A stretch of 64,000 bases of DNA from Streptomyces sp. R41 (GTDB taxonomy: Bacteria > Actinomycetota > Actinomycetes > Streptomycetales > Streptomycetaceae): contig NZ_CP163443.1 in assembly GCF_041053055.1 (NCBI RefSeq), positions 5,811,001-5,875,000 of the forward strand, in the 5' to 3' direction. Made by a program: the position numbers and the translations under genes. The notes beneath the pieces are model-generated. The model made no database searches and was not told where the DNA came from. It worked only from the letters and a program-made list of their open reading frames with translations. How positions within the stretch are numbered: position 1 is the first letter of the stretch; every line of letters begins with the position of its first letter. Below are positions 11,439 through 35,148 of the stretch, in pieces.

Positions 11439-12248
11439 TCACCCCACCCGGTCGCCCGACAGGGGAATCCCCGTGGCCCTGAGCAGCGATTCGTCCTGCT
11501 GCAGGATGGCCTGCATCAGTTCCCTCAGCCGTGCCCCCGGATTGATGCCGATCTGCTCGCGCAGAATCTCCTTGGCCCGGTGGAAGACCCGGATCGCGTC
11601 GGCCTGCCGGCCCTCGCCGTAGTAGGCCTTCATCAGGCCCACGTACAGGTCCTCGCGCAGCGGGTCGTGGTCGACGAGCTCCGACAGCTGCGAGATCGCC
11701 TCGCCGTAGTGCCCGAGACCGACGTCGATCAGCGCGCGCAGCTCGGCCGCCGCGGTCCGCTCGCGGTCCAGCGCCTCGCCTTTCATTCGGAGCCGGGTCG
11801 AGGTGACGTCCGTGAGGGCGGCGCCCCGCCACATGGCCAGCGCGCCGTCGAGGCGCTCGGAGGCGATCTTGTACTGGCCGCGGGCGTGCAGCTCGCGGAC
11901 GTGGCGTACGGCGTCCCGGAAGACGAACACGTCGATACGGTCGGCGGGGACCCGCAGTTCGTAGCCGAGGGCGTGCGAGCCGAGCGCGTCGCGGGTGAGC
12001 CCCGCCTCGGCCAGGGCCGTGCGGATCATCCAGGCCGAGGTCTGCAGCTGTCCGGAGACGGTCAGCGGCGGCTCACCGTCCCACGAGTCCTCGATGATCG
12101 CTTCCTTGGTGGTGACCTGTCCGGGCTTCAGCGCCAAGGAAGCGAGGAATCGTCGCTGCCGCTGACCCCGGATGGGTATCGGTATGTCATTTCTCAACAG
12201 GGTCACGGGGCCGAGAAGCTGGATGGTCACACTGTTCCTGCTGTCCAT
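11439..12248 (-). CDS. ccaR: CcaR-type SARP pathway activator
   Basis: A 269-aa Streptomyces antibiotic regulatory protein. It has an OmpR-type winged helix (about 8-100: IQLLGPVTLL, RGQRQRRFLASLAL, EAIIEDSWDGEPP) followed by a bacterial transcriptional activation domain (about 105-260, with REDLYVGLMKAYY and AREILREQIG-like helices). From memory the sequence is very close to CcaR of S. clavuligerus (about 256 aa), which activates both cephamycin C and clavulanic acid genes. Here it should switch on ceaS and the rest of the cluster (inference). I scanned the coding strand and saw no TTA codon, whereas S. clavuligerus ccaR is known for one. It has a GGGGG ribosome site and a 15-bp repeat array lies upstream. 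Confidence 0.9.
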   Translation of the reverse strand: MDSRNSVTIQLLGPVTLLRNDIPIPIRGQRQRRFLASLALKPGQVTTKEAIIEDSWDGEPPLTVSGQLQTSAWMIRTALAEAGLTRDALGSHALGYELRVPADRIDVFVFRDAVRHVRELHARGQYKIASERLDGALAMWRGAALTDVTSTRLRMKGEALDRERTAAAELRALIDVGLGHYGEAISQLSELVDHDPLREDLYVGLMKAYYGEGRQADAIRVFHRAKEILREQIGINPGARLRELMQAILQQDESLLRATGIPLSGDRVG

Positions 12249-12424
12249 GACGGTTCCCCCTTGTGTATGTGAATCAGGCCGTCGCCCAACAGGGGCTGCG
12301 GTATTGACGGAAGCGGGGGAACCGCCACCGGCGGCGCGGCTGGGCCGGCCTCGGTGACGCTTCGTGGAATCGTGCGACTCTGTCCCCCGTACCGTTGGCT
12401 CTCAGGTGCTCCGTGACCGTTGCT

Positions 12425-12509
12425 GGGTCACGGATGGGTCGATCACAGATGGTCGATGACACGTGGATCGATAACAGATGGGTCGATCTCAGATGGGTCG
12501 ATGCGTCAG
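12425..12509. repeat. 15-bp direct repeats upstream of ccaR, possible operator array
   Basis: Units with the pattern GGGTCGATNNCAGAT occur at 12425-12435 (partial), 12436-12450, 12451-12464, 12465-12479, 12480-12494 and 12495-12509. They fill the gap between the end of the PBP gene and the ccaR start, about 180-260 bp upstream of ccaR, and the last unit overlaps the PBP stop codon. SARPs bind directly repeated heptamers, so these may be regulator sites, but the 15-bp period differs from the usual 11 or 22. Confidence 0.7.
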
Positions 12510-14152
12510 TTGAGGTTCTTGAGGAACTTCGCGGCGATGGGGCCCGCGTCGGATCCGCCCGACCCGCCGTCCTCCAGGAGGACCGACCAGGCGATGTTGC
12601 TGTCGCCCTGGTAGCCGATCATCCAGGCGTGCGTGTGCGGCGGGGTGTCGTCGCCGAACTCTGCGGTGCCCGTCTTGGCGTGCGGCTCGCCGGGCAGGTC
12701 CTTGAGGGCCCAGCCGGCGCCGTACGTGACGGTGGCGCGCATCATCTCGCGCAGGTTGCCGACCACGTCCGACTCGAGCCGGGCGGGGGCCTCGTACTTC
12801 TTCTTCACGGCGTCGGGCACCAGGACGGGCTGCTTGAACTCGCCCTCCTTGACCGTGGCCGCGATCGAGGCCATGACCAGTGGCGACGTCTGGAGCCGGG
12901 CCTGTCCGATGGTGGACGCCGCCTTGTCGTTGTCGCTGTTGGTCACCGGGATGCTTCCGTCGTACGTCGTGGTGCCCACGTCCCAGGAGCCGCCGATGCC
13001 GAAGGCCTCCGCGGTGTCGTGCAGGGCGGTGTTCGACAGCTTTCCGCGCGCGCCGACGAAGAACGTGTTGCAGGACTTGGCGAAGGCGTCCCTGAAGGTC
13101 GAGCCGGACGGCAGCACGAACTGGTTCTGGTTCTCGAAGCGCTGGCCGTTGACGTAGGCGAACTTGGGGCAGTCCGCCCGGTCCGTGGGACGCATCCCCT
13201 GCTTCAGCAGAGCCGCGGAGGTGACGACCTTGAAGGTGGAGCCGGGCGGGTAACGGCCCTCCAGGGCGCGGTTCATGCCGGAGGGCATGTTGGCCGCGGC
13301 CAGGATGTCGCCGTTGCTGGGGTCGACGGCCACGATCGCCGCGTTCTTCTTCACTCCGTCGAGTGCTTCGGCGGCGGCCTCCTGCACCTTGGGGTCGATG
13401 GTGGTCTTCACCGGCTTGCCCGTGCTGCTTCCCGAGCCGGTGAGCTGCTTGACGACGCGGCCGCTCTCGCGTTCCACGATCACGACCGACTGTGCCTTGC
13501 CCCCGCCGCCGGTGAGCTGTTTGTCGTAGCGGGCCTGGAGGCCGGAGATTCCTTTGCCGGTCCTGGGGTCCACGGCGCCCACGAGAGAGGCGGACTGGAG
13601 TTCGTCGCCATTCTTGTCGAGGACGGCGGCCCGCTCCCGTGACTTCAGTGCGAGGGTCTGCCCCGGAACCATCTGAGGGTGAATCAGCGGTGTATGGAAT
13701 TCAACGGTCCATCGACCGCCCTTCTCGATGAGCTTCGCTTTCGAGTCCCACTTGTAATCGCCCGCACCGGAAAGGGCCATCTTCACGGTGAACGGAATCT
13801 CTACTTCCCCTTCCGTTTCCCGCTTCCCGGCACCGGCGGTGATCTCCGTCTTCGACGGCTTCAGGTTCGTCATGACGGATTTGATCAACGACTCGGCGTT
13901 GTCCGGCGTGTCCGTCAGCCCGGCGGCCTGCTTGGCGTCGCCGGCCTCCCATGCGTCCAGGAACTTGTCCAGCTGTCCCGTGGCCGCGGCGACCTGTGGG
14001 TCGTCCTCGTCGTCCCCGGCCAGGGCGTTGTATGCCCAGTAGCCGATTCCAGCGGTCGCCGCAAGTGCCACGAACGTTGATACAACCGCGCGACGACGGG
14101 ACCGACGCCTGTCGTACCGCGGGTAGTCAACATAGACATCGGAACGATTCAT
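12506..14152 (-). CDS. pcbR: Penicillin-binding protein, PcbR-like, probable self-resistance
   Basis: A 548-aa class B penicillin-binding protein. Seen: a short basic cytoplasmic tail, one membrane anchor (about 23-45, VVSTFVALAATAGIGYWAYN), an NTF2-like MecA N-terminal domain (about 55-170), and a C-terminal transpeptidase domain with all three active-site motifs: STFK (GSTFKVV), SCN and KTGT. In S. clavuligerus, PcbR (about 550 aa) lies beside ceaS and protects against beta-lactams; this gene has the same size and is divergent from ceaS. The symbol is assigned by position and length, not by alignment. Start ATG 14152 gives the membrane anchor at the right place. Confidence 0.82.
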   Translation of the reverse strand: MNRSDVYVDYPRYDRRRSRRRAVVSTFVALAATAGIGYWAYNALAGDDEDDPQVAAATGQLDKFLDAWEAGDAKQAAGLTDTPDNAESLIKSVMTNLKPSKTEITAGAGKRETEGEVEIPFTVKMALSGAGDYKWDSKAKLIEKGGRWTVEFHTPLIHPQMVPGQTLALKSRERAAVLDKNGDELQSASLVGAVDPRTGKGISGLQARYDKQLTGGGGKAQSVVIVERESGRVVKQLTGSGSSTGKPVKTTIDPKVQEAAAEALDGVKKNAAIVAVDPSNGDILAAANMPSGMNRALEGRYPPGSTFKVVTSAALLKQGMRPTDRADCPKFAYVNGQRFENQNQFVLPSGSTFRDAFAKSCNTFFVGARGKLSNTALHDTAEAFGIGGSWDVGTTTYDGSIPVTNSDNDKAASTIGQARLQTSPLVMASIAATVKEGEFKQPVLVPDAVKKKYEAPARLESDVVGNLREMMRATVTYGAGWALKDLPGEPHAKTGTAEFGDDTPPHTHAWMIGYQGDSNIAWSVLLEDGGSGGSDAGPIAAKFLKNLN

Positions 14153-16328
<2,176 letters not shown>

Positions 16329-16330
16329 TC

Positions 16331-17863
16331 ATGGCCTCCCAGGACCTTCCCGCGGCCTTCGGTCTCCTGGCCTCCGCTCGTCCGAGCGGGGGCCGGGTCC
16401 CCCAAGCCGCCTTCGCCACCCGGGGCACCCACACCGGCGTCGACCTGCATTTACGCTCGCAGACTCTCGGCGCGACCCTGGTGCACGCCCCCGGGCTCCC
16501 ACCCGACTCCGCCCAGGCACACGACGCGGACACCGCCGTACTGCTCGCCGGTGAGATCTACAACCGCGGCGACCTGTACTCCGTACTGGGGCCCAGGACC
16601 GAGCGGTCCGGCGACGCACAGCTGGTCCTGGACCTGCTGCGCCGCTACGGCCTGCACGCCTTCCGCCTCGTCAACGGGCGGTTCGCGGCGGTCGTCAGCA
16701 CCGGCCGGCAGGTCCTGCTGGCCACCGACCACGCCGGATCGATCCCGCTGTACGTGTGCGCGAGCCCCGGCGAGGTCACCGCGTCGACCGAGGCCAAGAC
16801 TCTGGCCGGGCACGGCAGTCCACGGGGCTTCCCCTTCGCGGACGCCCGCCGGGTCCGCGGCCTGCCGGGCGTCTACCAGGTGCCCGCGGGCGCCGTGATG
16901 GACATCGGCCTCGACGCCGGCACGGCCGAGACCCACCGCACCTGGGCCCCGCCGCTCGCCCGCCGGATCATGGACGAGGACGACGCCGTGGCCGCCGTAC
17001 GCACGGCCCTCGACCGGGCCGTGAGCGCGCGCCTCGCCCCGGGCGGTACGCCGCTGGTGGTGCTGTCCGGCGGCATCGACTCCTCCGGGGTCGCCGCCCT
17101 CGCGCACAAGGCGGCGGGCTCGATCGACTCGCTGTCGATGGGCACCGACGTGTCCGACGAGTTCGCCCAGGCCAAGGCGGTCGCCGACCACCTCGGCAGC
17201 CGGCACCGGGAGATCACCGTCCCCGCCGCCGACCTGCTGGGCCAACTCCCGTACGCGGTATGGGCGGCGGAGTCCGAGGACCCCGACATCATCGAGTACC
17301 TGCTGCCGCTCGTCGCCCTCTACCGCGCGCTCGACGGGCCGCCCCGCCGGGTCCTGACCGGGTACGGCGCCGACATCCCGCTCGCGGGCATGCACCGCGA
17401 GGACCGGCTGCCGAACCTGGACACGGCCGTGGCGTACGACATGGCGACGTACGACGGCCTGAACGAGATGTCGCCGGTGCTGTCCGCCGTGTCCGGCCAC
17501 TGGTCCACCCACCCCTACTGGGACCGCGACGTGCTCGACCTGCTCGTCTCGCTGGAGGCGGGCCTCAAGCGCCGCTACGGGCGCGACAAGTGGGTGCTGC
17601 GCGCCGCCATGGCCGAGTTGCTGCCCGAACAGACCGTCAAGCGGCCCAAGCTGGGCGTCCACGAGGGGTCGGGCACCACCTCCTCCTTCTCGCTGCTGCT
17701 CCTGGAGGAGGGCGTCGCGGAGCCGTCCGTCGACGCGGCCAAGCAGCAGGTGGTGCGGGAGCTGTTCGACCGCACCGTGGTGGCCGGCGAGGACCCCGGC
17801 GAGGTGAGCACCGCCGAGGTCGTGCGGTCGGTGGCCGACCGGCTGGAACGGGGGGCGGCATGA
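16331..17863 (+). CDS. bls: Beta-lactam synthetase (carboxyethylarginine beta-lactam-synthase)
   Basis: ATP-dependent closure of carboxyethylarginine to the monocyclic beta-lactam deoxyguanidinoproclavaminate. 510 aa (S. clavuligerus enzyme about 513). The N-terminal half resembles the glutaminase domain of asparagine synthetase B but lacks the N-terminal catalytic Cys (it begins MASQ), as is known for this enzyme. The C-terminal half has the PP-loop SGGIDSSG near residue 245 and a KRPKLGVHEGSG segment carrying the catalytic Lys near residue 440. Codon 41 (16451-16453) is TTA, the rare leucine codon read by bldA tRNA. Start two bases after ceaS; stop overlaps the next small ORF (ATGA). Confidence 0.97.
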   Translation: MASQDLPAAFGLLASARPSGGRVPQAAFATRGTHTGVDLHLRSQTLGATLVHAPGLPPDSAQAHDADTAVLLAGEIYNRGDLYSVLGPRTERSGDAQLVLDLLRRYGLHAFRLVNGRFAAVVSTGRQVLLATDHAGSIPLYVCASPGEVTASTEAKTLAGHGSPRGFPFADARRVRGLPGVYQVPAGAVMDIGLDAGTAETHRTWAPPLARRIMDEDDAVAAVRTALDRAVSARLAPGGTPLVVLSGGIDSSGVAALAHKAAGSIDSLSMGTDVSDEFAQAKAVADHLGSRHREITVPAADLLGQLPYAVWAAESEDPDIIEYLLPLVALYRALDGPPRRVLTGYGADIPLAGMHREDRLPNLDTAVAYDMATYDGLNEMSPVLSAVSGHWSTHPYWDRDVLDLLVSLEAGLKRRYGRDKWVLRAAMAELLPEQTVKRPKLGVHEGSGTTSSFSLLLLEEGVAEPSVDAAKQQVVRELFDRTVVAGEDPGEVSTAEVVRSVADRLERGAA

Positions 17864-17994: not shown

Positions 17995-17997
17995 GCC

Positions 17998-18939
17998 GTG
18001 GAACGCATCGACTCGCACGTCTCGCCCCGCTACGCCCAGATCCCCACCTTCATGCGCCTGCCGCTCGACCAGGAGCCACGCGGTTACGACGTCGTGGTCA
18101 TCGGCGCTCCCTACGACGGCGGCACGAGCTACCGGCCGGGCGCGCGGTTCGGGCCGCGCGCCATCCGCAACGAGTCCGGGCTCATCCACGGTGTCGGCAT
18201 CGACCGCGGTCCCGGCACCTTCGACCTCATCAACTGCGTCGACGGCGGCGACATCGATCTGACCCCGTTCGACATGAACATCGCGATCGAGACCGCCCAG
18301 CGGCATCTGTCGGAGCTGCTGAAGAGCAACGCCGCCTTCATGATGCTCGGCGGCGACCACTCGCTGACCGTGGCGGCCCTGCGCGCCGTGGCCGAACAGC
18401 ACGGCCCGGTCGCCGTCGTGCACCTGGACGCCCACTCCGACACCAACCCCGCCTTCTACGGCGGCCAGTACCACCACGGCACGCCCTTCCGGCACGGGAT
18501 CGACGAGAAGCTCATCGATCCCGCCGCGATGGTGCAGATCGGCATCCGGGGCCACAACCCGAAGCCGGACTCGCTCGACTACGCCCGCGGACACGGCGTA
18601 CGCGTGGTGACCGCCGACGAGTTCGGCGAGCTGGGCGTCTCCGGGACCGCCGGCCTCGTCCGGGAGCTGGTGGGCCAAAGGCCCGTGTACGTGTCGGTCG
18701 ACGTCGACGTGTGCGACCCGGCGTTCGCGCCAGGGACGGGCACCCCGGCGCCGGGCGGGCTCAGTTCGCGGGAGGTCCTCGGGCTGCTGCGCTGCGTCGG
18801 TGACCTCAAGCCGGTCGGCTTCGACGTGATGGAGGTCTCGCCCCTGTACGACCACGCCGGGATCACCTCCGTCCTGGCGACGGAGATCGGTGCGGAACTG
18901 CTCTACCAGTACGCCCGCGCCCATCGCATACAGATGTAG
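17998..18939 (+). CDS. pah: Proclavaminate amidinohydrolase
   Basis: Mn-dependent arginase/agmatinase-family enzyme that removes urea from guanidinoproclavaminate to give proclavaminate. 313 aa, the same length as S. clavuligerus Pah, with the same N-terminus (MERIDSHVSPRYAQIP). Metal-binding motifs are all present: GGDHS near residue 120, LDAHSDTN near 143-150, and SVDVDVCDPA near 235. The start codon is GTG. Third enzyme gene of the early operon, 22 bp before cas. One small change seen: VDVCDP where the usual family motif is VDxxDP with other residues at the Cys position. Confidence 0.97.
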   Translation: MERIDSHVSPRYAQIPTFMRLPLDQEPRGYDVVVIGAPYDGGTSYRPGARFGPRAIRNESGLIHGVGIDRGPGTFDLINCVDGGDIDLTPFDMNIAIETAQRHLSELLKSNAAFMMLGGDHSLTVAALRAVAEQHGPVAVVHLDAHSDTNPAFYGGQYHHGTPFRHGIDEKLIDPAAMVQIGIRGHNPKPDSLDYARGHGVRVVTADEFGELGVSGTAGLVRELVGQRPVYVSVDVDVCDPAFAPGTGTPAPGGLSSREVLGLLRCVGDLKPVGFDVMEVSPLYDHAGITSVLATEIGAELLYQYARAHRIQM

Positions 18940-18943
18940 CTGA

Positions 18944-19942
<999 letters not shown>

Positions 19943-19970
19943 TCACGTCGCCGGCCGGCCGGTTGACCGC

Positions 19971-19996: not shown

Positions 19997-20104
19997 TGCG
20001 GTGCGTTCGGCTCATGTGGCTCGTTCGGATCGTTCGCGTCGCCATACCCGCGATGCATGAATATGCTGCCTGATTGGAAGTAATGCAGACAGGAGACGAT
20101 GACC

Positions 20105-21307
20105 ATGCCCGACTCCGAACACTTCGACGGCTCCGAAGGGAAGACGACGCCGCAGGGGTTCGTCGTGCACACCGCGCCGGTCGGTCTCGCCGACGACGGC
20201 CGGGACGACTTCACCGTGCTGGCCTCGACGGCCCCGGCCCAGGTCAGTGGGGTGTTCACCCGCTCCCGGTTCTCCGGGCCGAGCGTCCTGCTGAGCCGTG
20301 AGGCCGTCGCCGACGGCCGGGCGCGGGGCGTGGTGGTGCTGGCCCGCAACGCGAACGTCGCGACCGGGCGGGAGGGAGAGGCCAACGCGCGCGAGGTGCG
20401 CGAGTCCGTGGCGCGCGTCCTCGGCGTGCCCGAGGACGAACTCCTCATCGCCTCCACCGGCGTGATCGGCCGTCAGTACCCCATGCCGCAGATCCGGGAG
20501 CACCTCAAGTCGCTGTCCCTGCCCTTCCCGGAGGGCGGTTTCGACCATGCCGCCCGCGCCATCATGACGACCGACACCCGGCCGAAGGAGGTCCGGCTGC
20601 GGTGCGGGGACGCGACGCTCGTCGGGATCGCCAAGGGCGTCGGGATGATCGAGCCGGACATGGCGACGCTGTTGACGTTCTTCGCCACGGACGCCCGGCT
20701 CGACGCGGCCGAGCAGGACCGGATCTTCCGGCGGGTGATGGACCGCACCTTCAACGCGGTGAGCATCGACACGGACACCTCCACCAGTGACACGGCGGTG
20801 CTGTTCGCCAACGGGCTGGCCGGGGACGTCGATCCCGTCGCCTTCGAGGAGGTTCTGTACGAGGCCGCGCTGGCCCTCGTCAAGGACATCGCGAGCGACG
20901 GGGAGGGCGCGAGCAAGCTCATCGAGGTCCAGGTCACCGGGGCGCGTGATGTCGCCCAGGCCAAGCGGGTGGGCAAGACCGTCGTCAACTCACCGCTGGT
21001 GAAGACCGCGGTGCACGGCAGCGACCCCAACTGGGGCCGCGTCGCCATGGCGATCGGCAAATGCTCCGACGACACCGACATCGACCAGGACGCCGTGCGG
21101 ATCCGGTTCGGGGAGGTCGAGGTCTACCCGCCCCGTGCCTCTGGCGCGCGGGAGGAGGACGCGGTGCGGGCGGCTGTCGCCGAGCACCTTGAAGGGGACG
21201 AGGTGATCATCGGCATCGACCTCGCCGTCGCGGACGGGGCGTTCACCGTGTACGGGTGCGATCTCACCGAGGGGTACGTGCGGCTGAACTCGGAGTACAC
21301 GACCTGA
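20105..21307 (+). CDS. oat2: Ornithine acetyltransferase (ArgJ family) of the clavulanate cluster
   Basis: N-terminal-nucleophile acetyltransferase of the ArgJ family that moves acetyl groups between glutamate and ornithine. In clavulanate producers it is thought to feed arginine precursor or act on N-acyl intermediates. 400 aa; the autocleavage site KGVGMIEPDMATLL with nucleophilic Thr is near residue 180, and STGVIGR and DPNWGRVAMAIGK motifs are present. ATG 20105 is preferred over ATG 20099 because the AGGAG site at 20091-20095 is only three bases from the latter and nine from the former. Confidence 0.94.
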   Translation: MPDSEHFDGSEGKTTPQGFVVHTAPVGLADDGRDDFTVLASTAPAQVSGVFTRSRFSGPSVLLSREAVADGRARGVVVLARNANVATGREGEANAREVRESVARVLGVPEDELLIASTGVIGRQYPMPQIREHLKSLSLPFPEGGFDHAARAIMTTDTRPKEVRLRCGDATLVGIAKGVGMIEPDMATLLTFFATDARLDAAEQDRIFRRVMDRTFNAVSIDTDTSTSDTAVLFANGLAGDVDPVAFEEVLYEAALALVKDIASDGEGASKLIEVQVTGARDVAQAKRVGKTVVNSPLVKTAVHGSDPNWGRVAMAIGKCSDDTDIDQDAVRIRFGEVEVYPPRASGAREEDAVRAAVAEHLEGDEVIIGIDLAVADGAFTVYGCDLTEGYVRLNSEYTT

Positions 21308-21342
21308 CGGGTGGGGCGGGTGCGGGCGCGGGTGGGTGGTTT

Positions 21343-21517: not shown

Positions 21518-21649
21518 GACATCCCTCACGCCCACCCCGGCTATACCGACCCGCCGGCGGCTATGCGTGCCCCAGCCCGTACCCCCTTCCTCGCATGCCC
21601 GCCCCCACAAGATGTGGAGGAAGGCATCCGCGAGGAGGGCTGCAGGGAC

Positions 21650-26055: not shown

Positions 26056-27291
26056 ATGATGCAGAACGATGCAGCGGTCCAGGAAGAGAGGGCGGCGGCA
26101 CCGTCGTACCCGATGCCACGTGTCTCCCCCGTGGACCCGCCGCCGCAGCTCGCCGCGCTGCGGGCCGGACGCGCCGCGAGCCGGGTGACGCTGTGGGACG
26201 GCAGCGAGGTGTGGCTGGTGACCTCGCACGCCGGTGTCCGGGCCGTGCTGGGTGACCGTCGGTTCACCGCGGTCACCAGCGCCCCCGGCTTCCCGATGCT
26301 GACCCGCACCTCGCAACTCGTGCGCGCGGCGCCCCACACGGCCTCGTTCATCCGCATGGACGACCCGGACCACTCCCGGCTGCGCTCGATGCTCACCCGC
26401 GACTTCCTCGCGCGCAAGGCGGAGGAAATGCGGCCCGTGCTGCGGGAGTTGCTGGATGACATGCTGGGCGGTCTGGTGGCGGCCGGTGAGAAGCCCGTCG
26501 ATCTCGTCGCCGGTCTGACGATTCCCGTGCCGTCCCGGGTCATCGCCCTGCTGTTCGGCGTGGGCGAGGACCGCCGGGACTTCATCGAGGGCCGCAGCGC
26601 GATTCTCATCGACCGTGGCTACACCCCCGATCAAGTGGCCACCGCAAGGGACGAGTTGGACGGCTTCCTGCGGGAGCTCGTCGAATCGCGGGTCGCCGAT
26701 CCCGGCACCGATCTGGTGAGCCGTCTGGTGACCGACCAGGTACGGCCCGGCCGGCTGAGCGTCGAGGAACTGGTCCCGATGTGCCGGCTGCTGCTGGTGG
26801 CGGGGCACGGCACGACCACCAGTCAGGCCAGCCTCAGTCTGCTCAGCCTGGCCACCGACCCCGGCCTCGCCGACGCCCTGACCAAGGACGAGAGCCTGCT
26901 GCCCAAGGCGGTCGAGGAGTTGCTGCGCTTCCACTCCATCGTGCAGAACGGACTGGCCCGCGCCGCCATCGAGGACGTACAGCTGGACGACGTGACGATC
27001 AAGGCCGGCGAGGGTGTCGTCCTCTCGCTCTCGGCGGGCAACCGCGACGAGCGGGTCTTCCCGTCCCCGGACACCCTCGACCCGCACCGCGACGCCCGCC
27101 GCCATCTGGCCTTCGGCCACGGCATCCACCAGTGCCTGGGGCAGTGGCTCGCCAAGGTCGAGATCGAGGAGATGCTGGCCGCCGTGCTGCGCTGGATGCC
27201 CGGTGTGCGGCTGGCCGTGCCGTTCGAGGAGCTGGACTTCCGCCACGAGGTGTCCAGTTACGGACTCGGCGCGCTCCCGGTCACCTGGTGA
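26056..27291 (+). CDS. cyp: Cytochrome P450, CYP105M type
   Basis: P450 monooxygenase of the late clavulanate pathway, proposed to take part in the oxidative deamination and inversion steps from N-glycylclavaminate toward clavaldehyde. 411 aa, close to the 407 or so of S. clavuligerus CYP105M1. Seen: I-helix AGHGTTTSQ near residue 240, ExxR in EELLRF near 280, and the haem loop FGHGIHQCLG with the Cys ligand near 355. The MMQND start at 26056 resembles the family start. Its stop overlaps the ferredoxin start, so redox partners are co-translated. Confidence 0.94.
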   Translation: MMQNDAAVQEERAAAPSYPMPRVSPVDPPPQLAALRAGRAASRVTLWDGSEVWLVTSHAGVRAVLGDRRFTAVTSAPGFPMLTRTSQLVRAAPHTASFIRMDDPDHSRLRSMLTRDFLARKAEEMRPVLRELLDDMLGGLVAAGEKPVDLVAGLTIPVPSRVIALLFGVGEDRRDFIEGRSAILIDRGYTPDQVATARDELDGFLRELVESRVADPGTDLVSRLVTDQVRPGRLSVEELVPMCRLLLVAGHGTTTSQASLSLLSLATDPGLADALTKDESLLPKAVEELLRFHSIVQNGLARAAIEDVQLDDVTIKAGEGVVLSLSAGNRDERVFPSPDTLDPHRDARRHLAFGHGIHQCLGQWLAKVEIEEMLAAVLRWMPGVRLAVPFEELDFRHEVSSYGLGALPVTW

Positions 27292-27557
27292 CAGACGTGA
27301 GCGACGCGAGCGACGCGAGTGGCATGAGCGACGGGAGCCACGCGGCCGGCGCGAGCCGCCTGACGATCACCGTCGACCCGGACGCGTGCTGCGCCATGGG
27401 CCGGTGCGCGGCGAGTGAGCCGGAACTCTTCGACCAGGACCCCGACACCGGCACCGTGGTCCTGCTCGACCCCACCCCCGCGCCCGCACGGCACGCATCG
27501 GCCCGGCTCTGCGCCGAGTTGTGCCCGTGCGGGGCCATCACGGTCACCGAGGACTGA
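27288..27557 (+). CDS. fd: Ferredoxin, 3Fe-4S type, partner of cyp
   Basis: Small acidic iron-sulfur protein supplying electrons to the P450. About 89 aa from GTG 27288, which overlaps the cyp stop (GTGA). The ferredoxin proper starts near residue 25 (LTITVDPDACCAMGRC) and ends with LCAELCPCGAI, giving the CxxxxxC...C-P spacing of one-cluster actinobacterial ferredoxins. The first 24 residues are an odd Ser/Asp/Gly-rich extension encoded by 9-bp repeats (GCGAGCGAC). Starts at GTG 27297 or ATG 27324 would shorten it, but none has a clear ribosome site. Confidence 0.9.
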   Translation: MTDVSDASDASGMSDGSHAAGASRLTITVDPDACCAMGRCAASEPELFDQDPDTGTVVLLDPTPAPARHASARLCAELCPCGAITVTED

Positions 27558-27611: not shown

Positions 27612-28985
27612 ATGATCCAAGCCCCTGGTTCCGTCCCGTCCGGCGCCACCGCCGCCGAGGCGGCGCTCGCCGCCGACGACTCCCCGATGGGTGACGCTGC
27701 CCGGTGGGCGGTAGGGCTGCTGACGGCGCCCGACCTCGCCCCGGACGAGTCCACAGCCGGTCGTTTCGTGCCGACCTTCCCCGCCCGGCACGCGCGGGGC
27801 TTCTCCGCGACGCTGGAGGAGTGGCGTACGAAGGGGCCGTTCACGGTCCGGGAGTACCAGCCCGTCGCCCACAAGGGCTGGGTCGTCCTGTCCGGGCCCA
27901 CCGGCCTGCGCCACACGCTGTCGCTGACCCTCGACTCCACCGGGCTGATCCGCATCCTCGCCCTCCAGCCCGAGACGGTGATCCCCGAGATACGCACCTG
28001 GGACGAGCTGGAGGACACGCTGCGCATATCCGGCGTCGACCACTCCGTCCTCGCCGCGCGCCTCACGCCCGGCGGAACCGCCGTCCTGCACGAGTCGGCC
28101 GCCGCCCGGCCGATGCCCACCGGCTCCGCGTACAAGCTCTATGTGATGCGCGCCCTCGTCCAGGCGATCGAGAGCGGCGAGCTGAGCTGGGACGACGAGG
28201 TCACCGTACGGCCCGAACTGCGCAGCCTGCCCACGGGCGACATGCAGGATCTGCCGGACGGAAGCCGCGTCCCGGTGCGCGAGACGGCGTACAAGATGAT
28301 CGCGATGAGCGACAACACCGGCGCCGATCTGATCGCGGACCGGTTGGGCCGGGACGCCGTCGAGCGTGCCGTGACCGCCTCCCGCCACCACGACCCCTCC
28401 CTCCTGCGTCCCTTCCTGACCAGCCACGAGGTCTTCGAACTCGGCTGGGGCGCACCGGAGTTGCGTAAGGCCTGGGCCGAGCGCGACGAGTCCGGACGGC
28501 GCGAGCTGCTGCGCGAGATCGCCCGGCCGATGACGGTGCGCGGCTCCGATCTGGGCGAGACGGTGCACCGGCTGGGCCTCGACTGGCACATGACCGCGTA
28601 CGACGTGCTCCACGTCCTCGAAGGACTCCGGCACGACAGCGAGCGGGACGCCACCGGCACGGTGGAGCACATCCTGACCGCCTACCCCGGCATCCCCGTC
28701 GACCACGCCAAGTGGTCCAGGGTGTACTTCAAGGCCGGTTCCTGCCCCGGCGTGATGATGTTCTGCTGGCTTCTCCAGGACCGGGCCGGCACCGTGCACG
28801 TCCTGGTGCTGCGGCAGGCGGCCGACGAGCAGAAGCCCATCGGCGACGGCCTGTTCCTGCGCGGACTGGGTGCGCGGGTCATCAACTCCGGTCTGCTGGA
28901 GGCCGGCCCGGAGCACGGCGAAGGAGCCGAGCCCGGCACAGCTCCGCAGCACGGCGAAGGAGCCGACCGGGAAGCCACCCGGTGA
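27612..28985 (+). CDS. orf12: Orf12, beta-lactamase-like protein of clavulanate biosynthesis
   Basis: Essential late-pathway protein of unknown exact reaction. The S. clavuligerus protein has an N-terminal isomerase-like domain and a C-terminal class A beta-lactamase-like domain with weak cephalosporin esterase activity. Here 457 aa (458 in S. clavuligerus). Seen: nucleophile motif SAYK at 172-175, SDN at 233-235, and KAG near residue 374 in place of the KTG box. The C-terminus carries two near-identical EHGEGA/QHGEGA repeats. ATG 27612 has an AAGGAG site. Its stop overlaps orf13 (GTGA). Confidence 0.94.
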
Positions 28986-30016
28986 GCGTCAAGGACCGAC
29001 TCCTCGCCGTTCTCGTCGCCGTGCTGTGGGGGCTGAACTTCCTCGCCGTACGGATCGGACTCGACCACTACCCGCCGCTCTTCCTCTCCGCGCTGCGCTT
29101 CCTCGTCCTCGCCGTGCCGGTGATCCTCTTCGTGCCCCGCCCGAAGGCGCCGGTGCGCTGGCTGGTGGTCTACGGACTGGGCTTCGGGGTCCTGCAGTTC
29201 GGGCTGCTCTTCCTCGCCATCGACCAGGGCATGCCGTCCGGGCAGGCCTCGGTCGTGGTGCAGGCTTCGGCCCCGTTCACCATGCTGCTCGGCGCGCTGC
29301 TGCTGGGCGAACGGGTCTCCCCGCGGCAGCTGGGCGGAATAGCCCTCGCCGTGCTCGGCATGGCGGTGATCGCGGTGGAACGGGCCCGCAGCGCCGCTCT
29401 GCTCCCGCTGCTGCTGACCCTGCTGGCGGCGCTCGGCTGGGCACTCGGCAACATCGCCAGCCGCCAGGCCCGCCCCGACCATCCGCTGCGCTTCGCCCTG
29501 TGGATGTCCGTCGTGCCGCCGCTGCCGCTGCTGGCCCTGTCCGCCGTCATGGAGGGCCCGACCACCGGCTGGCGCGCACTCGGCGGCTCGTTCGACGCCG
29601 ACGGCTGGCCCGGCCTGGCGGCCCTGGTGTACACCGCGCTCGCGGGCTCGGTGGTCGGCTCGGGCATCTGGACCACCCTGCTGAAGCGCTACGAGGCGGG
29701 CGTCGTGGCCCCGTTCTCCATGCTGGTCCCGGTGGTGGGGGTGGCGGCGGCGTGGGCGGTGCTGGGGGAGGAGCTGACGGGGTGGTCACTGACGGGCGGC
29801 GTGGCGGTGGTGGTGGGGGTCCTGGCGGGAACGGGTTGGGCACCGAGGGTGCCCTTCCGGCGAAGCAGTGGGGGAGCGCCCCTTGAGGGGCGCGAGGCTG
29901 TGACATCTGCGGCTCCGCCGCGTGGGCGCGCCCGGCCACGACCCACCCGCACCGACCGAACGGAGAATCAGTCCCCCGAACCGACCGCCCCGGCCCAGAA
30001 CACCCACCGGTCATAA
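28982..30016 (+). CDS. orf13: Orf13, EamA/DMT-family transporter, putative clavulanate exporter
   Basis: Ten-helix drug/metabolite transporter (344 aa) with two EamA repeats (about 5-130 and 145-285). Motifs such as [13 protein letters not shown] and the [11 protein letters not shown] helix are typical. Proposed in S. clavuligerus to export a late intermediate or the product; not proven. GTG 28982 overlaps the orf12 stop. After the last helix comes a 55-residue Arg/Pro-rich tail that appears to derive from a dispersed hairpin repeat (29876-29893), and its last 49 bases overlap convergent orf14. Confidence 0.9.
29876..29893. repeat. Dispersed hairpin element in the 3' end of orf13
   Basis: An 8-bp stem (GCGCCCCT / AGGGGCGC) with a two-base loop, followed by CTGCGGCTCCGCCGCG. 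It is of the same type as the oat-oppA1 inter-gene hairpin. Here it lies within the coding frame and creates a non-membrane tail. Confidence 0.65.
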
Positions 30017-31008
30017 GGCACGAACCCCATGGCCGCGTTGACCGCGATCATCGCGTCGTTGTCCTCGGCGTTGGCCGTCTCGATGAGCCGCACACCCGGC
30101 TCATGCCGCAACACGTACTCCAGGTTCGCCAGCTTGAGCAGCCGCCCCAGCCGATGTCCCCGATGCGCCCGGTGCACGACGGTCATCCCCTGAAGCGCGT
30201 ACTCAGGATTCCCCGTGGTCTTCGAGACACTCGTGTACCCGGCCAGACGGCCACTCGCGTCGTGGACGACACCGGTGTGGTACGCCCGCCGCCCGCGCCC
30301 GACGCGCATGGTCTCGAACTCCCGGGCGTAGCTGGTCTCGACTTCCTGCTCCTCGTCGAAGGCCTCGTCGCCCAGCGACTCATCGCCGAGCGACCGTTCC
30401 AGCACGGACACCCGTACCGCGTATTCGTCGGGCGTGATGGTCCCCCAGGTGACGAGGGAGTACCCCTCCGGCACGGCGGGGACGCCGTCGGCCAGCGGAT
30501 CGTGCGCGCCGAGGTCCAGCCACTGGTGCACTCCGGCCGGTACGGCCGAGCGCTCCGCCCCCATCGCCGCCGCGAAGGCGGCCGGTCCCGGGTCGCGCGC
30601 CGGGCCGCCGGGCAGTGCCTCCACCACGGTCGCGGCGAGCGCGGAACGCCCGTGCCCCGCGGCGATGTCGGCCGCCCGCTCGTACAGCGCGCGCCCGATG
30701 CCCCGGCGGCGCAGCTGCGGGTGGACGAGGAGCTGGTCCACGCGTGCCACGCCGGCGCCGTCGGGCAGCGCGAGCCGCAGCGCGCCGACGACCCGGCCGC
30801 CGTGCCCGTCGTGGCGTACGACCCAGTCCTCCAGCTTGGTGGCGGGCGGCGGGAAGCGCAGCGAGCCCGTCATGTCGGCGGTGCAGGGGGGCGCGGCCTC
30901 CGGGACGTCACCGGCCGAGTCGGCGAGCAGCCGCAGCCACTGGCCGACCGTGGTCTCGTCGTCGGCGGCCAGCGGGCTGAAGCGCAGGTCGTGCGTGATG
31001 TCGTTCAA
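29968..31008 (-). CDS. orf14: Orf14, tandem GNAT acetyltransferase-like protein
   Basis: 346-aa protein with two GCN5-related domains (about 15-170 and 185-340). The first has an acetyl-CoA loop-like RRRGIGRALYERA; the second has HRGHRLGRLLKLAN. The S. clavuligerus homologue binds acetyl-CoA in its N-terminal domain, and its substrate is unknown. It may handle the N-acyl intermediates of the late pathway (inference). ATG 31008 overlaps the oppA2 stop by four bases, so it is coupled to the gcaS-orf16-oppA2 mRNA. Its 3' end overlaps orf13 by 49 bp. Confidence 0.92.
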   Translation of the reverse strand: MNDITHDLRFSPLAADDETTVGQWLRLLADSAGDVPEAAPPCTADMTGSLRFPPPATKLEDWVVRHDGHGGRVVGALRLALPDGAGVARVDQLLVHPQLRRRGIGRALYERAADIAAGHGRSALAATVVEALPGGPARDPGPAAFAAAMGAERSAVPAGVHQWLDLGAHDPLADGVPAVPEGYSLVTWGTITPDEYAVRVSVLERSLGDESLGDEAFDEEQEVETSYAREFETMRVGRGRRAYHTGVVHDASGRLAGYTSVSKTTGNPEYALQGMTVVHRAHRGHRLGRLLKLANLEYVLRHEPGVRLIETANAEDNDAMIAVNAAMGFVPYDRWVFWAGAVGSGD

Positions 31009-32720
31009 GGGGTGTTCTCCCAGTCGCTACGGTCGGCGCGGTCGGGGGCGATGCCCATGGCCTGGACGTCGTACAGCCCGAAGGCCGGATGGACGTACAC
31101 ATTGGTGACCCACGGGTTGCGGAAGTGCAGGGTCTTGTCGTGGACCAGGGGAAGGATCACGGCGTGTTCCATCACCAGGCGTTCGACGGCGCTCCACTGG
31201 CGGGCCCGTTCGGCGGGGTCGGTGGTGTGCAGGCTCTGGTCGATGAGCTCGTTGACGCGCGGGTCGTCGAGCTCGGCGATGTTCCAGTTGCCGCCGTTGG
31301 GTTTGATCTGGCGGCCGTCCACGAGGGGCGCGAGGAAGCCGTACTCGGTGGGGAAGTCGGCGCCCCAGTCGGTGACGATGAGCCCGAGCGCGTGCTCGCG
31401 GACGGTCTCCGGGTGCCCGGCGCCCAGGCTGAAGTAGCTCGCGACGTCCAGTTCCTTCACGGTCAGCCGGATGCCGACCCGGGCCACCGACTCGGCGACC
31501 GCGTCGGCGACCAGCCGGAACTTGCCGCGCTGGGTGCCGATCACCGCGTCGAAGCCGTCCGGCAGCCCCGCCGCCGCCAGCTCGGCGCGCGCCGCGTCGA
31601 GGTCGCCGCGCAGGTCCGGGCCGGTCGGATACCGGTCCAGGTCCTGATGCGCGGGCAGCCGTGGCGGGAACAGCGCCGTGGTGAGGTCCCCGCCGGTGAC
31701 CGGGCCGCCGCGCGCCTGCTGGAGCAGGATCTTGTCGGCCGCGTAGTGCACGGCGCGGCGCGCGTGCACGTTGTCGAACGGCGGGATGTGCGGCTGGATC
31801 GACACGAAGTGCAGGAAGCTCGTCCGCGGATTGTCCGTGTACGACCGCAGGACACCGTCCGTCGTGACACGGCCCTGCGCCGCGTGCTGGAGGCCCCGGC
31901 CCTCGAGGTTGATGTCGAACTCCCCGGCGATCAGCCGCTCGTCGAGCTCGTCGACGTCCACCCCGATGGTCAGCTCCACCCGGTCGGGCAGCGCGGGCCG
32001 CACCGGGTCCGTGGCGCGGTCCCAGTACGGGTTGCGCTCGAAGTGCATGAACTTGCCCGGCCGGTGGACGGCGATCCGGTACGGACCGCTGGAGCGCGGG
32101 TTCTCCCCGTAGTCGGCCCCGGTGTCCGCGCGCCGCGGCACCGGGGCCGCGCAGGGCTGCGCCATCAGATGGTCGAAGTCCGAGAACGGGCGCCGCAGTT
32201 GGAAGACGATCGTGCGCTCGTCGGGGGTGAGCACGGACCGCAGCGGGTCGCTGGTCCGGTACGGACCCGGGTACGGCCGCGCGGGATCGTCGAGGAGCGG
32301 TACGAGGTAGGTCGGGCCGCCGGGCAGCACGTCCTGCGCGAACACCCGCTGCACGGCGTGGCGTAGGTCGTCCGAGGTGATCGGGGTGCCGTCGTCGTAG
32401 CGCAGGTTCTCGCGCAGCCGGTACGTCCAGGTGCGGCCGCCGTCGCTCACCCGCCCGGGGCTCTCGGCGAGGTCCGGGACGGGGACGAGCCCGGCGGGGC
32501 CCGGGTCGGTGGGGTAGGCCATGAGGGTGCGGTTGAGCATCCGCTGCAGCAGCCACACCCACACGTAGTAGGTGCGCGCGGGGTCGAGGGAGTCCACATC
32601 GGCCGAGGAGACCAGACGGAGCGTGCCGCCGCGCCGGTCCGAGGGGTTCACCATCGAACCGACGCCGGCGTCCCAGCCGGCACCCGCACCCGCCGCCGCT
32701 TCGGTGATTCGCGTACTCAT
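31005..32720 (-). CDS. oppA2: Oligopeptide-binding protein OppA2
   Basis: Family 5 solute-binding protein (571 aa), paralogue of OppA1. Shared motifs are seen: GGTLRLV near residue 31, LDPARTYY, the DNVHARRAV segment near 325 and MEHAVILP near the end. S. clavuligerus OppA2 is essential for clavulanate production and its crystal structure is known to bind arginine and peptides. As with OppA1, the N-terminus (MSTRITEAAAGAGAG) has no recognisable signal peptide or lipobox. ATG 32720 overlaps the orf16 stop (ATGA). Confidence 0.93.
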   Translation of the reverse strand: MSTRITEAAAGAGAGWDAGVGSMVNPSDRRGGTLRLVSSADVDSLDPARTYYVWVWLLQRMLNRTLMAYPTDPGPAGLVPVPDLAESPGRVSDGGRTWTYRLRENLRYDDGTPITSDDLRHAVQRVFAQDVLPGGPTYLVPLLDDPARPYPGPYRTSDPLRSVLTPDERTIVFQLRRPFSDFDHLMAQPCAAPVPRRADTGADYGENPRSSGPYRIAVHRPGKFMHFERNPYWDRATDPVRPALPDRVELTIGVDVDELDERLIAGEFDINLEGRGLQHAAQGRVTTDGVLRSYTDNPRTSFLHFVSIQPHIPPFDNVHARRAVHYAADKILLQQARGGPVTGGDLTTALFPPRLPAHQDLDRYPTGPDLRGDLDAARAELAAAGLPDGFDAVIGTQRGKFRLVADAVAESVARVGIRLTVKELDVASYFSLGAGHPETVREHALGLIVTDWGADFPTEYGFLAPLVDGRQIKPNGGNWNIAELDDPRVNELIDQSLHTTDPAERARQWSAVERLVMEHAVILPLVHDKTLHFRNPWVTNVYVHPAFGLYDVQAMGIAPDRADRSDWENTP

Positions 32721-33850
32721 CGTGCCGTCTCCCCGATCCGCAGCAGGAAAGAGTGCTCCTCGCTCGCCAGGCAGCCGCGCGCGAGTTTCGCCTCGACGCT
32801 GCCGATCCCGGCGTGCAGGACGGACACGCCCTCGCGCGCGGCGGCCTCGAGGACGCGGTAGTACAGGACGTCGTAATAGAGCGGCAGCTTGCCCTGGGCG
32901 TCGTAGTCGAATCCGGCGCGGTGGCCGAACCACTGCTCCTCGCCGCGGGCCCGGGAGCGCAGCACCATGCCGAAGCCGATGATGCTGCCGTCCTTGCGCG
33001 CCACCGAGACCATGGCGTCGTCGCCCATGACCTCGGAGATCCAGCTCAGCAGCCCGGCCGAGTGCTCGGGGCTCGCCGGATTGCCGTACTTGCGCAGCAG
33101 GTTGCAGTCGAGCTCGCCCAGGCGCGGGGCCAGTGCCTTGGTCAGCGGTTCGAGGTGGACCTCCACCTTGGCCTCGGCCAGCGCCCGGCGCTCCAGGCGC
33201 ACCCGGCGGCGCCGGTGCTTGCTCATCTCCTCGAGGAACTGGTCCCAGCCGCCGGGCGGAATGGGCAGCCAGGCGTAGTGCGCCGAGAGGTGCGAACGGT
33301 AGCCGCGGCCGCGCAACAGCTCGACCAGGCCGGTGTCGCGGACGTCGACATGGGGGAAGCAGACGGACGCCGCCCCGCGCTCCGCGGCGAGTTGCTCGGC
33401 CCGCTCCAGCAGCGCCTCGACGTCCGAGGGCAGCGCATCGGGTCGGGCCGGCGCCCGGGTGCGTCCCAGGTGCCGGCCGCCGCACACCAGGGACGGCAGC
33501 AGGGCCGCCGGATCGCCCTGGGCCACCTCGGTGAGGACGGCCTCGGCCTCCGGTGTGCCGCCGTCCTCCAGAGCCCGGGAGAGCATCGCGTCCGGCCGGG
33601 CGAGCAGCCACGGCACCGAGTCGTCGGCCCACGCGGCGACGAGGCCCGCGACCGGCTTGTCGTCCCGGTGCTGGACGAGAAAGTCCATCGTGGTCCCGGA
33701 GTTGCGCTCCTGGACCGCCAGCCAGCGGGAGGTCTGGAAGAAGTCCTCCGCGCCGAGCAGGTCGTCCCAGCCGGCGGCGGGCAGCGCGGCGGCGTCCGCC
33801 ACCGCCCGCACATCGCCCCGGCTGCCCGCATACGGACCGGTGCCCCTCAC
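32717..33850 (-). CDS. orf16: Orf16, GNAT/FemAB-like protein of clavulanate cluster
   Basis: 377-aa protein with no proven role. The C-terminal half reads like a GNAT fold of the acetyltransferase/peptidoglycan-recognition type: KHRRRRVRLERR near residue 215, GSIIGFGMVL near 290, LYYDVLYYRVLEAA near 325 and HAGIGSVEAKLARG near 350. It could transfer an acyl or aminoacyl group to a pathway intermediate (inference). The GTG start at 33850 overlaps the gcaS stop (GTGA), and its own stop overlaps oppA2, so four genes are coupled in series. Confidence 0.88.
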   Translation of the reverse strand: MRGTGPYAGSRGDVRAVADAAALPAAGWDDLLGAEDFFQTSRWLAVQERNSGTTMDFLVQHRDDKPVAGLVAAWADDSVPWLLARPDAMLSRALEDGGTPEAEAVLTEVAQGDPAALLPSLVCGGRHLGRTRAPARPDALPSDVEALLERAEQLAAERGAASVCFPHVDVRDTGLVELLRGRGYRSHLSAHYAWLPIPPGGWDQFLEEMSKHRRRRVRLERRALAEAKVEVHLEPLTKALAPRLGELDCNLLRKYGNPASPEHSAGLLSWISEVMGDDAMVSVARKDGSIIGFGMVLRSRARGEEQWFGHRAGFDYDAQGKLPLYYDVLYYRVLEAAAREGVSVLHAGIGSVEAKLARGCLASEEHSFLLRIGETAR

Positions 33851-35148
33851 AGCTTCTGTGCCCCGTCCTCCTCGACCACGAAGTCGAGGTACGCGGCCGC
33901 CTTGTCGGCCAGGGCCTGTGCTTCGAGGCGGTCGGGGCCGTTGCAGTAGGTGAAGCCGACGCAGGAGGAGTTGTCCATGCGCTGCAACAGGTGGTCGCCC
34001 TTCTCCACGTGCAGCAGCACCTGCACGCCCGGCACCGAGGAGGCGGCCTCCACGCCGTCCACGCGCTTGAGGACGCCGCGCCGCTGCGGGTAGATCATGC
34101 GGACGGCGGCGCCGCCGGTGTGGATGACCGGCTCGATCGGCGGGATCTCGCCGATCGCGAGCAGCCAGGCGTCCAGGATGGGGCTGCGCCCGGTGACGTC
34201 CGTGACGAGCATGGTCATGCAGCTCGACGGTGTGCGCGGGTTGGCCTCGATGATGCGCCAGCCGGACTCGGTGCGCCGGACCTCGGTGTGGCAGGGCCCG
34301 CGGTCGTAGCCGATGGCCTCCAGCGTCCTTCGCACCACGGAGTAGAGCTCGTCGCGCTCGTCGTCGGAGAGCGGCACGGGGAAGGTGTGCCCGCACTCGA
34401 TGTAGGCCGGGTCGCCGAACAGGTCCTTCGAAGTGACGCCGAAGACGTGGGTGTGTCCGTCCACCGTCATCGTCTCGACGCTGACCTCGACGCCTTCGAC
34501 GTACGTCTCCAGGAGCACGTCGCCCGAACGCGGCTGGCCGCGCAGGCTGTGCCGTATCCCGGACAGCTCCTGCCACGCCTCGACCAGTTGGTCCATGTCG
34601 TCGACGCGGCGGACCCCGTAACTGATCGCCTCCGCGGGCGGTTTGGCGATCATCGGGAAGCCGAGCCGCTCGGCCGCTTCTTCGAGCTGTTCGCGGCCGC
34701 CGACCAGCATGTGGGGGATGTTGAACGGTACGTCGCCGAGCGCGACGCGCAGCCGGTCCTTGACGTTGGCGGTCTCCACGGCAGCGGGGTCGGGACCCGG
34801 CAGACCGAGGCGCCGGGCCGCTTGCGCGGCGAGCACCGTGTGGTAGTCGGAGAACGACGTCAGACCGTCCACCAGGGGAGCGCCGTTGTCGTCGGTCACC
34901 ACGGACAGCACCGCTTCCAGGTCGGTGGTGTCGACGTCGATCACGTGGTCGACGGCCGCGGCGAGCGGGTGGGAGTCCCAGTCGTGGCCGTGGGTGTACC
35001 AGGCCCGGTCACCGGTGAGCAGCCACACCTCGAGACCGTGCTCGCGGGCCTGGTGCAGGCCCAGGACGAACGGGTGGTTCTGCATGTGCTCGACGATCGC
35101 GATGCGCCTGCCGGCGAACTTCGCGTAGTCGGCCAGGGGTGTTGTCAT
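33847..35148 (-). CDS. gcaS: N-glycylclavaminic acid synthetase, ATP-grasp
   Basis: ATP-grasp ligase that couples glycine to clavaminic acid, known from S. clavuligerus GcaS (orf17). 433 aa. Seen: an N-terminal preATP-grasp region (RIAIVEHMQ), ATP-binding FPMIAKPP near residue 165, and the Mg-binding end of the ATP-grasp domain (CHTEVRRTESGWRIIEANPRTP) near 290-310. First gene of the gcaS-orf16-oppA2-orf14 operon, all with 4-base overlaps. It marks the right end of the recognisable clavulanate cluster; pbpA and the further genes that follow in S. clavuligerus are not here. Confidence 0.95.
   Translation of the reverse strand: MTTPLADYAKFAGRRIAIVEHMQNHPFVLGLHQAREHGLEVWLLTGDRAWYTHGHDWDSHPLAAAVDHVIDVDTTDLEAVLSVVTDDNGAPLVDGLTSFSDYHTVLAAQAARRLGLPGPDPAAVETANVKDRLRVALGDVPFNIPHMLVGGREQLEEAAERLGFPMIAKPPAEAISYGVRRVDDMDQLVEAWQELSGIRHSLRGQPRSGDVLLETYVEGVEVSVETMTVDGHTHVFGVTSKDLFGDPAYIECGHTFPVPLSDDERDELYSVVRRTLEAIGYDRGPCHTEVRRTESGWRIIEANPRTPSSCMTMLVTDVTGRSPILDAWLLAIGEIPPIEPVIHTGGAAVRMIYPQRRGVLKRVDGVEAASSVPGVQVLLHVEKGDHLLQRMDNSSCVGFTYCNGPDRLEAQALADKAAAYLDFVVEEDGAQKL

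Follow-up and report, generated by a model that had tools for sequence, protein, structure and literature searches.

A complete clavulanic acid gene cluster without adjoining cephamycin genes, and a neighbouring BLIP-family gene, in Streptomyces sp. R41

The 64,000-nt stretch analysed here (positions 5,811,001-5,875,000 of NZ_CP163443.1, assembly GCF_041053055.1; hereafter the window) comes from the genome of Streptomyces sp. R41, a single contig of 10,462,393 bases that is 99.56% complete, and it holds a complete clavulanic acid (CA) gene cluster of 19 genes, blaB1 to gcaS, at window positions 9805-35148. From left to right, blaB1, ccaR and pcbR lie on the minus strand, ceaS, bls, pah, cas, oat and oppA1 on the plus strand, claR and car on the minus strand, cyp, fd, orf12 and orf13 on the plus strand, and orf14, oppA2, orf16 and gcaS on the minus strand; every gene of the core CA cluster, defined as ceaS to gcaS (PMC6856088), is present and in order. 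Genes were called from open reading frames (ORFs) selected by codon composition together with profile scans, and there was no internal stop in any reading frame used for the cluster genes. An earlier sequence-only reading had set the limits of the cluster at 11439..35148; it located the cluster correctly and drew the edges short, since blaB1 extends it to 9805 on the left and a nocE-like gene and a BLIP gene continue to 40527 on the right. The features are the following, with bare percentages giving identity to the Streptomyces jumonjinensis protein.

9805..10803, minus strand: blaB1-like hydrolase of the metallo-beta-lactamase (MBL) fold, 332 amino acids (aa); Pfam Lactamase_B_2; 74%
11439..12248, minus strand: ccaR, SARP activator; BTAD domain; 74% to the protein in the same position
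12506..14257, minus strand: pcbR, penicillin-binding protein (PBP), start not fixed; MecA_N and Transpeptidase; 75% over 548 aa
14607..16328, plus strand: ceaS, carboxyethylarginine synthase, 573 aa; full-length match to PDB 1upa, start taken from that alignment
16322..17863, plus strand: bls, beta-lactam synthetase, 513 aa; match to PDB 1jgt, residues 6-513
17998..18939, plus strand: pah, proclavaminate amidinohydrolase; arginase family; 92%
18962..19942, plus strand: cas, clavaminate synthase (CAS); NF043003 at 581.6 bits, curated cut-off 450
20099..21307, plus strand: oat, ornithine acetyltransferase; ArgJ family
21311..23341, plus strand: oppA1, substrate-binding protein, start not fixed; SBP_bac_5; 92% over 538 aa
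23317..24801, minus strand: claR, LysR regulator, start not fixed; HTH_1 and LysR_substrate; 73% over 431 aa
25004..25747, minus strand: car (cad), clavulanic acid (clavaldehyde) dehydrogenase, 247 aa; PDB 2jah at 380 bits, the sole PDB match at E<=1e-50
25828..27291, plus strand: cyp, cytochrome P450, start not fixed; p450; 81%, the match starting near 26053
27324..27557, plus strand: fd, ferredoxin, 77 aa; three Fer4 families above cut-off
27612..28985, plus strand: orf12 (cpe), Cpe protein with KAG motif; PF18042 and PF13354; PDB 2xep; essential residues kept
28982..30016, plus strand: orf13, predicted EamA exporter; EamA; 83% over 266 aa
29968..31008, minus strand: orf14, GNAT protein; GNAT in two stretches; 77%
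31005..32720, minus strand: oppA2, substrate-binding protein, 571 aa; SBP_bac_5 at 199 bits
32717..33772, minus strand: orf16, about 350 aa, FemAB-like/GNAT fold; PF04339 at 55.6 bits; 83%
33847..35148, minus strand: gcaS, N-glycyl-clavaminate synthetase; ATP-grasp and LAL_C2; 89%
35772..39809, minus strand: nocE-like large protein, 1345 aa; GDSL and golvesin matches just under cut-off
39964..40527, minus strand: BLIP-family gene, 187 aa, signal peptide read by eye; PF07467 at 140.5 bits, cut-off 26.7

CeaS, Bls, Cas, Car and Orf12 each match the solved enzyme of the same name in the PDB, and we take the solved CeaS, Bls, Cas and Car structures to be those of the Streptomyces clavuligerus enzymes. 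Cas is the only NF043003 match in the genome among the 8 of 16 first-look candidates that were scored, and orf13 starts with a GTG that overlaps the orf12 stop. As the sequence-only reading had proposed, the locus was aligned to that of S. jumonjinensis, a maker of both CA and cephamycin C: 17 of the 19 genes from blaB1 to gcaS were matched, without any change of order or strand and at identities of 73-92%. That comparison omitted fd, and the S. jumonjinensis oppA2 was removed by the ORF filter; it appears there as a cross-hit of oppA1 between orf14 and gcaS. The two loci thus share the order from blaB1, ccaR, pcbR and ceaS through gcaS as well as the KAG-type Cpe; S. jumonjinensis differs in having cephamycin genes beyond blaB1 and no nocE-like match in the stretch fetched. 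Among named genomes the nearest CAS proteins are those of S. albiflavescens (98%) and strain M41 (90%), and among the matches listed all CAS relatives with an organism name at 82% identity or more are Streptomyces.

No cephamycin gene was found in the window by tblastn with eight S. jumonjinensis cephamycin reading frames (best E 0.003). Genome-wide there is no orthologue of isopenicillin N synthase (IPNS): the best match is 29% identical, against 83% between the S. jumonjinensis and S. fulvorobeus orthologues, and three DIOX_N proteins of the genome, at 29% each, were rejected as IPNS. The genome likewise yielded no ACV synthetase orthologue, the first pcbAB reading frame finding at best 32% (80% for a true orthologue), in searches that did not extend to cefD or cefE. 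The claim of the sequence-only reading that the CA cluster has no adjoining cephamycin genes is therefore supported, and the genome search that it had proposed for pcbAB, pcbC and lat returned only a lone Lat-like gene of another group. This lysine 6-aminotransferase gene, at 9.167 Mb, is the one in the genome that passes TIGR03251. It was considered as a cephamycin relic and rejected, its product being 61% identical to the cephamycin Lat of S. jumonjinensis as compared with 79% for that of S. fulvorobeus. It is 92-93% identical to its counterpart in S. albiflavescens, HD and Bin2.31, and it adjoins an aldehyde dehydrogenase gene whose best NCBIfam model, under the model cut-off, is piperideine-6-carboxylate dehydrogenase; we read it as a putative gene of lysine catabolism rather than of cephamycin synthesis. 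When 20 CAS- or CA-bearing genomes were searched, an IPNS orthologue was present in two, S. jumonjinensis and S. fulvorobeus, and a second search of 12 genomes, partly overlapping the first, returned the same two only (S. jumonjinensis as control, and G343, whose coordinates are those of S. fulvorobeus). The window genome, S. albiflavescens, M41 and G454 lack one, and of the 12 Orf12-bearing genomes in the genus draw described below, all of them searched, only G343 has one. The window is accordingly not a CA-cephamycin supercluster.

Lone CA clusters are known as a kind, and the window is not new in that respect, because lone CA-like clusters have been described in general (PMC6856088, PMC12482188) and the order seen here has been reported for S. 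albiflavescens and M41; those two, with SID14446 and SID288, follow the order of S. clavuligerus and have blaB1 next to ccaR (PMC9146315). In the S. albiflavescens and M41 loci as fetched, blaB1-ccaR-pcbR stands beside ceaS and the right-hand chromosomal flank is common with the window, and their genomes lack an IPNS orthologue; the window shares with them the gene order, the adjacency of blaB1 and ccaR and the absence of cephamycin genes. The published blaB1 product of both strains is also 332 aa long (PMC9146315). The S. pratensis-type cluster, with a KGG Cpe, likewise has the CA enzymes, pcbR, ccaR, blaB1 and nocE and no adjoining cephamycin genes (PMC9146315, PMC6856088), but its order is split and rearranged and its Cpe falls in another clade; the window does not show its two blocks with ccaR/blaB1 inserted (PMC9146315). 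A carbapenem cluster also occurs in 12 of 21 genomes with an S. pratensis-type cluster (PMC12482188). A carbapenem partner was sought here solely via a second Bls homologue; in the R41 genome such matches are only partial (29-35% over 96-235 query residues), which makes an MM 4550-type carbapenem cluster there improbable, and G256 and G255 (S. fulvorobeus) have a second Bls match of 35-36% over 343-378 residues that we take as a putative carbapenem enzyme. S. fulvorobeus is reported to have a carbapenem cluster (PMC12482188).

The Cpe protein (Orf12) places the window with the known producers. Of the 78 Orf12 proteins found, 69 were used for a tree (the nine most distant, P0191-P0199, were dropped); there the window protein falls in a 22-row clade (support 100/99) with S. 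clavuligerus and S. jumonjinensis, and rows of S. pratensis-like order, such as [Kitasatospora] papulosa, fall outside. Inside the 22-row clade, the window belongs to a five-member subclade distinct from the seven-member one in which both producers lie. A tree of ceaS, bls, pah and cas from 20 loci agrees for the taxa it holds, S. clavuligerus not being included. The KAG motif occurs in 21 of the 22 clade rows versus 3 of 47 rows outside, and CA producers have been reported to carry KAG and two non-producers KGG (PMC6478378). Of 16 positions changed to alanine in S. clavuligerus Cpe, eight abolish production and W91A does so partially; the S. jumonjinensis and S. katsurahamanus proteins complement and those of S. 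flavogriseus and S. viridis do not (PMC6478378). The window protein, 67% identical to that of S. clavuligerus, keeps all eight essential residues (K89, S173, K176, S234, Y359, K375, S378 and R418); the S. clavuligerus row of the tree, P0142, is a crystal-structure chain with A at 378, where the wild type has S (PMC6478378). Since motif, essential residues and clade are all those of producer-type Cpe, we predict that the cluster belongs to the functional type and regard the strain as a candidate for genuine CA production in the absence of cephamycin, contrary to the rule stated in the literature and taken up below.

Beyond gcaS lies the nocE-like gene, so called for the GDSL proteins found in other CA-like clusters; its product is 94% identical to that of S. 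albiflavescens, 85% to that of M41 and 79% to that of S. fulvorobeus. In S. fulvorobeus (L117:7605-11606) this gene lies about 5 kb from lat of a cephamycin cluster unlinked to its CA genes. Past it, 4.8 kb from gcaS, is the BLIP-family gene. Its product is 49% identical to S. clavuligerus BLIP over 153 aa, and BLIP gives it better scores (130-132 bits for the three best chains) than do BLIP-I (83) and the inactive BLP (71). Like other members of PF07467 it has two repeats and is predicted to be secreted, and it keeps D49, Y50, Y53, K74, W112, H148 and W150; it differs from S. clavuligerus BLIP in missing the F142 loop and in having S in place of H41. Presumably Y50, Y53, K74, W112, H148, W150 and H41 are all positions that matter. 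D49 and F142 are BLIP hot spots, and family members can be inactive, as is S. clavuligerus BLP (PMC6121496). A second BLIP-like gene lies at 3.487 Mb of the same genome. The full-length copy beyond nocE distinguishes the window from S. albiflavescens, where L111:8853-9097 is the window's gene minus 432 internal bases beside a nocE-like gene that matches over its whole length, and from M41, where the BLIP-like gene is elsewhere. In HD, Bin2.31 and B93 (L036, L037 and L039) a BLIP-like gene lies on the other side of the cluster, directly beyond blaB1 and near 0.6-1.3 kb of those loci; S. clavuligerus blp adjoins orf10, beside ccaR (PMC3992018).

Genes like blip have been described as very rare, with less than 40% identity in new CA strains (PMC9146315). 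In a draw of 392 congeneric genomes (the same 392 in both searches, as read from shared handles), Orf12 at E<=1e-60 marked 12 and PF07467 marked 17. Counting as full-length the BLIP matches of at least 54 bits and as partial those of 22-43.5 bits, a cut set after the scores were seen, full-length BLIP occurred in 9 of the 12 genomes with Orf12 versus none of the 380 without it (Fisher p 4.0e-16, by species and uncorrected for kinship); with all 17 matches the counts were 9 of 12 and 8 of 380 (Fisher p 9.2e-12). The Orf12 genomes with no BLIP match were G320, G328 and G457. A family draw of 394 genomes, overlapping the first, agreed: all eight genomes with full-length BLIP (at least 64 bits) carry Orf12, and two with weak matches do not. 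S. wedmorensis (G265) may be an exception, with a full-length BLIP of 115.7 bits and no Orf12 in its CAS locus, of which only 21 kb was fetched. Among genomes picked for CAS or Orf12, 14 of 24 had a BLIP match (G259 and G487, the same place, being counted twice). Of the 12 distinct full-length carriers in the two draws, four (the window genome, G184, G268 and G462) have the gene next to the cluster; in the other eight the distance ranges from 26 kb to megabases or the gene is on a different contig. Plain linkage therefore fails to account for the association; shared ancestry might. The portions of the literature consulted held no statement of it.

The history of the cephamycin genes was approached through an IPNS tree (217 proteins, 120 listed, 38 of these used together with two read from loci). 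CA-bearing status was taken from CAS or Orf12 protein names and, for S. katsurahamanus, from the literature. The IPNS of CA-bearing genomes fell into two clades, one (87/95) with S. clavuligerus, S. jumonjinensis, S. katsurahamanus and S. fulvorobeus, the other (100/99) with NPDC002785, NPDC046197, NPDC048717 and URMC 126, whose Orf12 groups with S. clavuligerus. A single clade was rejected by the approximately unbiased (AU) test for seven of these genomes (p 2.5e-5; S. fulvorobeus, with its unlinked cephamycin genes, was left out) and for S. clavuligerus, S. jumonjinensis and S. katsurahamanus with URMC 126 (p 0.0098). Because the IPNS of CA-bearing genomes is not one lineage, we favour the view that cephamycin genes probably joined CA clusters more than once. 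A supercluster inherited as a single ancestral unit had seemed plausible from IPNS names in three Orf12 subclades and was then contradicted, if not completely, by this tree. In NPDC046197, Orf12 (P0128) and IPNS (P0212) are listed with one longest contig of 348,557 bases, a possible CA-cephamycin linkage beyond the three known producers.

From gene content and order, open frames, the absence of IPNS and ACV synthetase, the tree position and the Cpe residues, we infer, with moderate confidence as to expression, product, history and ecological role, that the window carries a free-standing, intact CA cassette of the producer (KAG-Cpe) lineage that most likely makes CA, has probably never been linked to cephamycin genes in this lineage, and may be partnered by BLIP. 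If the enzymes act in their established pathway roles, CeaS, Bls, Pah and Cas would build clavaminate and GcaS, Cpe, Cyp/Fd and Car would carry out the late steps to 5R clavulanate, while CcaR and ClaR would switch the cluster on and PcbR would protect the cell; the adjacent BLIP gene suggests a set inhibiting class A beta-lactamases, rather than a partner for a cephamycin of the same genome. Several observations weigh against this. CA is described as being produced solely by strains in which cephamycin genes adjoin the cluster, and none was made by S. pratensis or its relatives whose clusters stand alone (PMC12482188). The KAG motif is a correlation, with one clade row having KGG (P0144) and three outside rows having KAG (P0137, P0189 and P0190). 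As to history, one of the seven genomes, NPDC048717, was called CA-bearing from a CAS name alone; the groups for the IPNS tests were named after the tree and the carriers of CA genes had been seen; and the AU test does not reject a single IPNS clade made up of just the three known producers (p 0.224). Three of the four subclades in the 22-row Orf12 clade include genomes with IPNS, which would allow an ancestral supercluster with losses, and this, together with the shared contig of NPDC046197, means that the linkage may be older than thought.

The strongest competing explanation, which we regard as possible though clearly the less probable, is that a full gene set either stays silent or leads no further than monocyclic beta-lactam or 5S precursors, as has been suggested for S. 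pratensis. The lone CA-like clusters tested so far yield no CA, and S. pratensis and the JAC strains make predicted monocyclic inhibitors (PMC12482188, PMC6856088). However, the Cpe proteins of the non-producers tested have KGG (PMC6478378), and the loci of S. pratensis-like order (L042, L044, L046 and L050, with pcbR beyond cas and with oat and mbl-ccaR upstream of ceaS) lie outside the window's clade, S. pratensis itself not being among the loci.

It is unlikely, though less so than an internal deletion, that cephamycin genes once lay past blaB1 in an ancestor, in the manner of S. jumonjinensis, and were lost at that edge in this lineage. The position of cefD, lat, pcbAB and pcbC directly beyond blaB1 in S. 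jumonjinensis would suit such a loss, as would the single contig listed for NPDC046197 and the spread of IPNS over three subclades. Against it stand the two separate IPNS clades, with the tests given above (including the unrejected grouping of the three producers), the absence of any cephamycin remnant from the window, and the lack of an IPNS orthologue in its genome, S. albiflavescens, M41 and G454.

The sequence-only reading had started from the premise that pcbC, pcbAB and lat separate pcbR from ccaR in the classic producers. This is true of S. clavuligerus, which otherwise has the same CA genes as the window and where pcbR, pcbC, pcbAB, lat, blp, orf10, ccaR, cmcH and cefF are SCLAV_4198 to 4206 (PMC3992018), but not of S. 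jumonjinensis, where the order away from ceaS is pcbR, ccaR, blaB1, cefD, lat, pcbAB, pcbC, cmcH, a cefF-like gene and, further on, cmcI (cephamycin gene names assigned by family and position). Operon order is known to differ among these producers (PMC6856088). Inverting the segment from ccaR to pcbC of S. jumonjinensis yields the S. clavuligerus order, except for cefD and blp, and a single inversion would thus account for the difference. The genes pcbR, ccaR and blaB1 adjoin one another directly both in the window and in each of the six full-length loci whose CAS is at least 85% identical (S. albiflavescens, M41, HD, Bin2.31, B93 and S. jumonjinensis; L092, with a CAS of 92% over 51 residues at a contig end and no left flank, was excluded), and we therefore read this arrangement as the shared older state and the S. 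clavuligerus order as derived, with no deletion between pcbR and ccaR needed. PcbR and CcaR are orthologous to the named proteins by position and identity (75% and 74% to S. jumonjinensis). Loss of a cephamycin block from between pcbR and ccaR, which that reading had offered first and which the intervening pcbC-pcbAB-lat-blp-orf10 of S. clavuligerus (PMC3992018) would suggest, is very improbable given that S. jumonjinensis makes both compounds with the two genes adjacent and that one inversion links both producer orders (cefD and blp apart). Its other suggestion, a free-standing cassette, is the one we favour, although the description of it as carrying only the activator and the resistance PBP was incomplete, because blaB1 and the nocE-like gene are also present and the BLIP gene is next door.

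Returning to the free-standing cassette, its main points of interest are a producer-type signature in an IPNS-free genome and the BLIP link. Whether lone clusters are ancestral is left open in PMC12482188, and an apparently intact lone cluster that groups with the producers in the tree and has their Cpe signature makes the rule of that paper testable on one strain. The BLIP link offers a possible reason, other than a cephamycin of their own, for the persistence of such clusters, and it would mark CA-bearing genomes as places to look for new inhibitor proteins. Expression of blip is ccaR-dependent in S. clavuligerus (PMC3992018). We suggest, quite tentatively, that CA and BLIP could form a CcaR-controlled two-part kit of class A beta-lactamase inhibitors that was selected without cephamycin, that the window would make genuine CA, and that cephamycin was added later and repeatedly.

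At the left edge, directly beyond blaB1, the window has an amino acid permease gene (8112-9671, minus strand), which among the fetched CAS loci is matched only by S. albiflavescens and M41.

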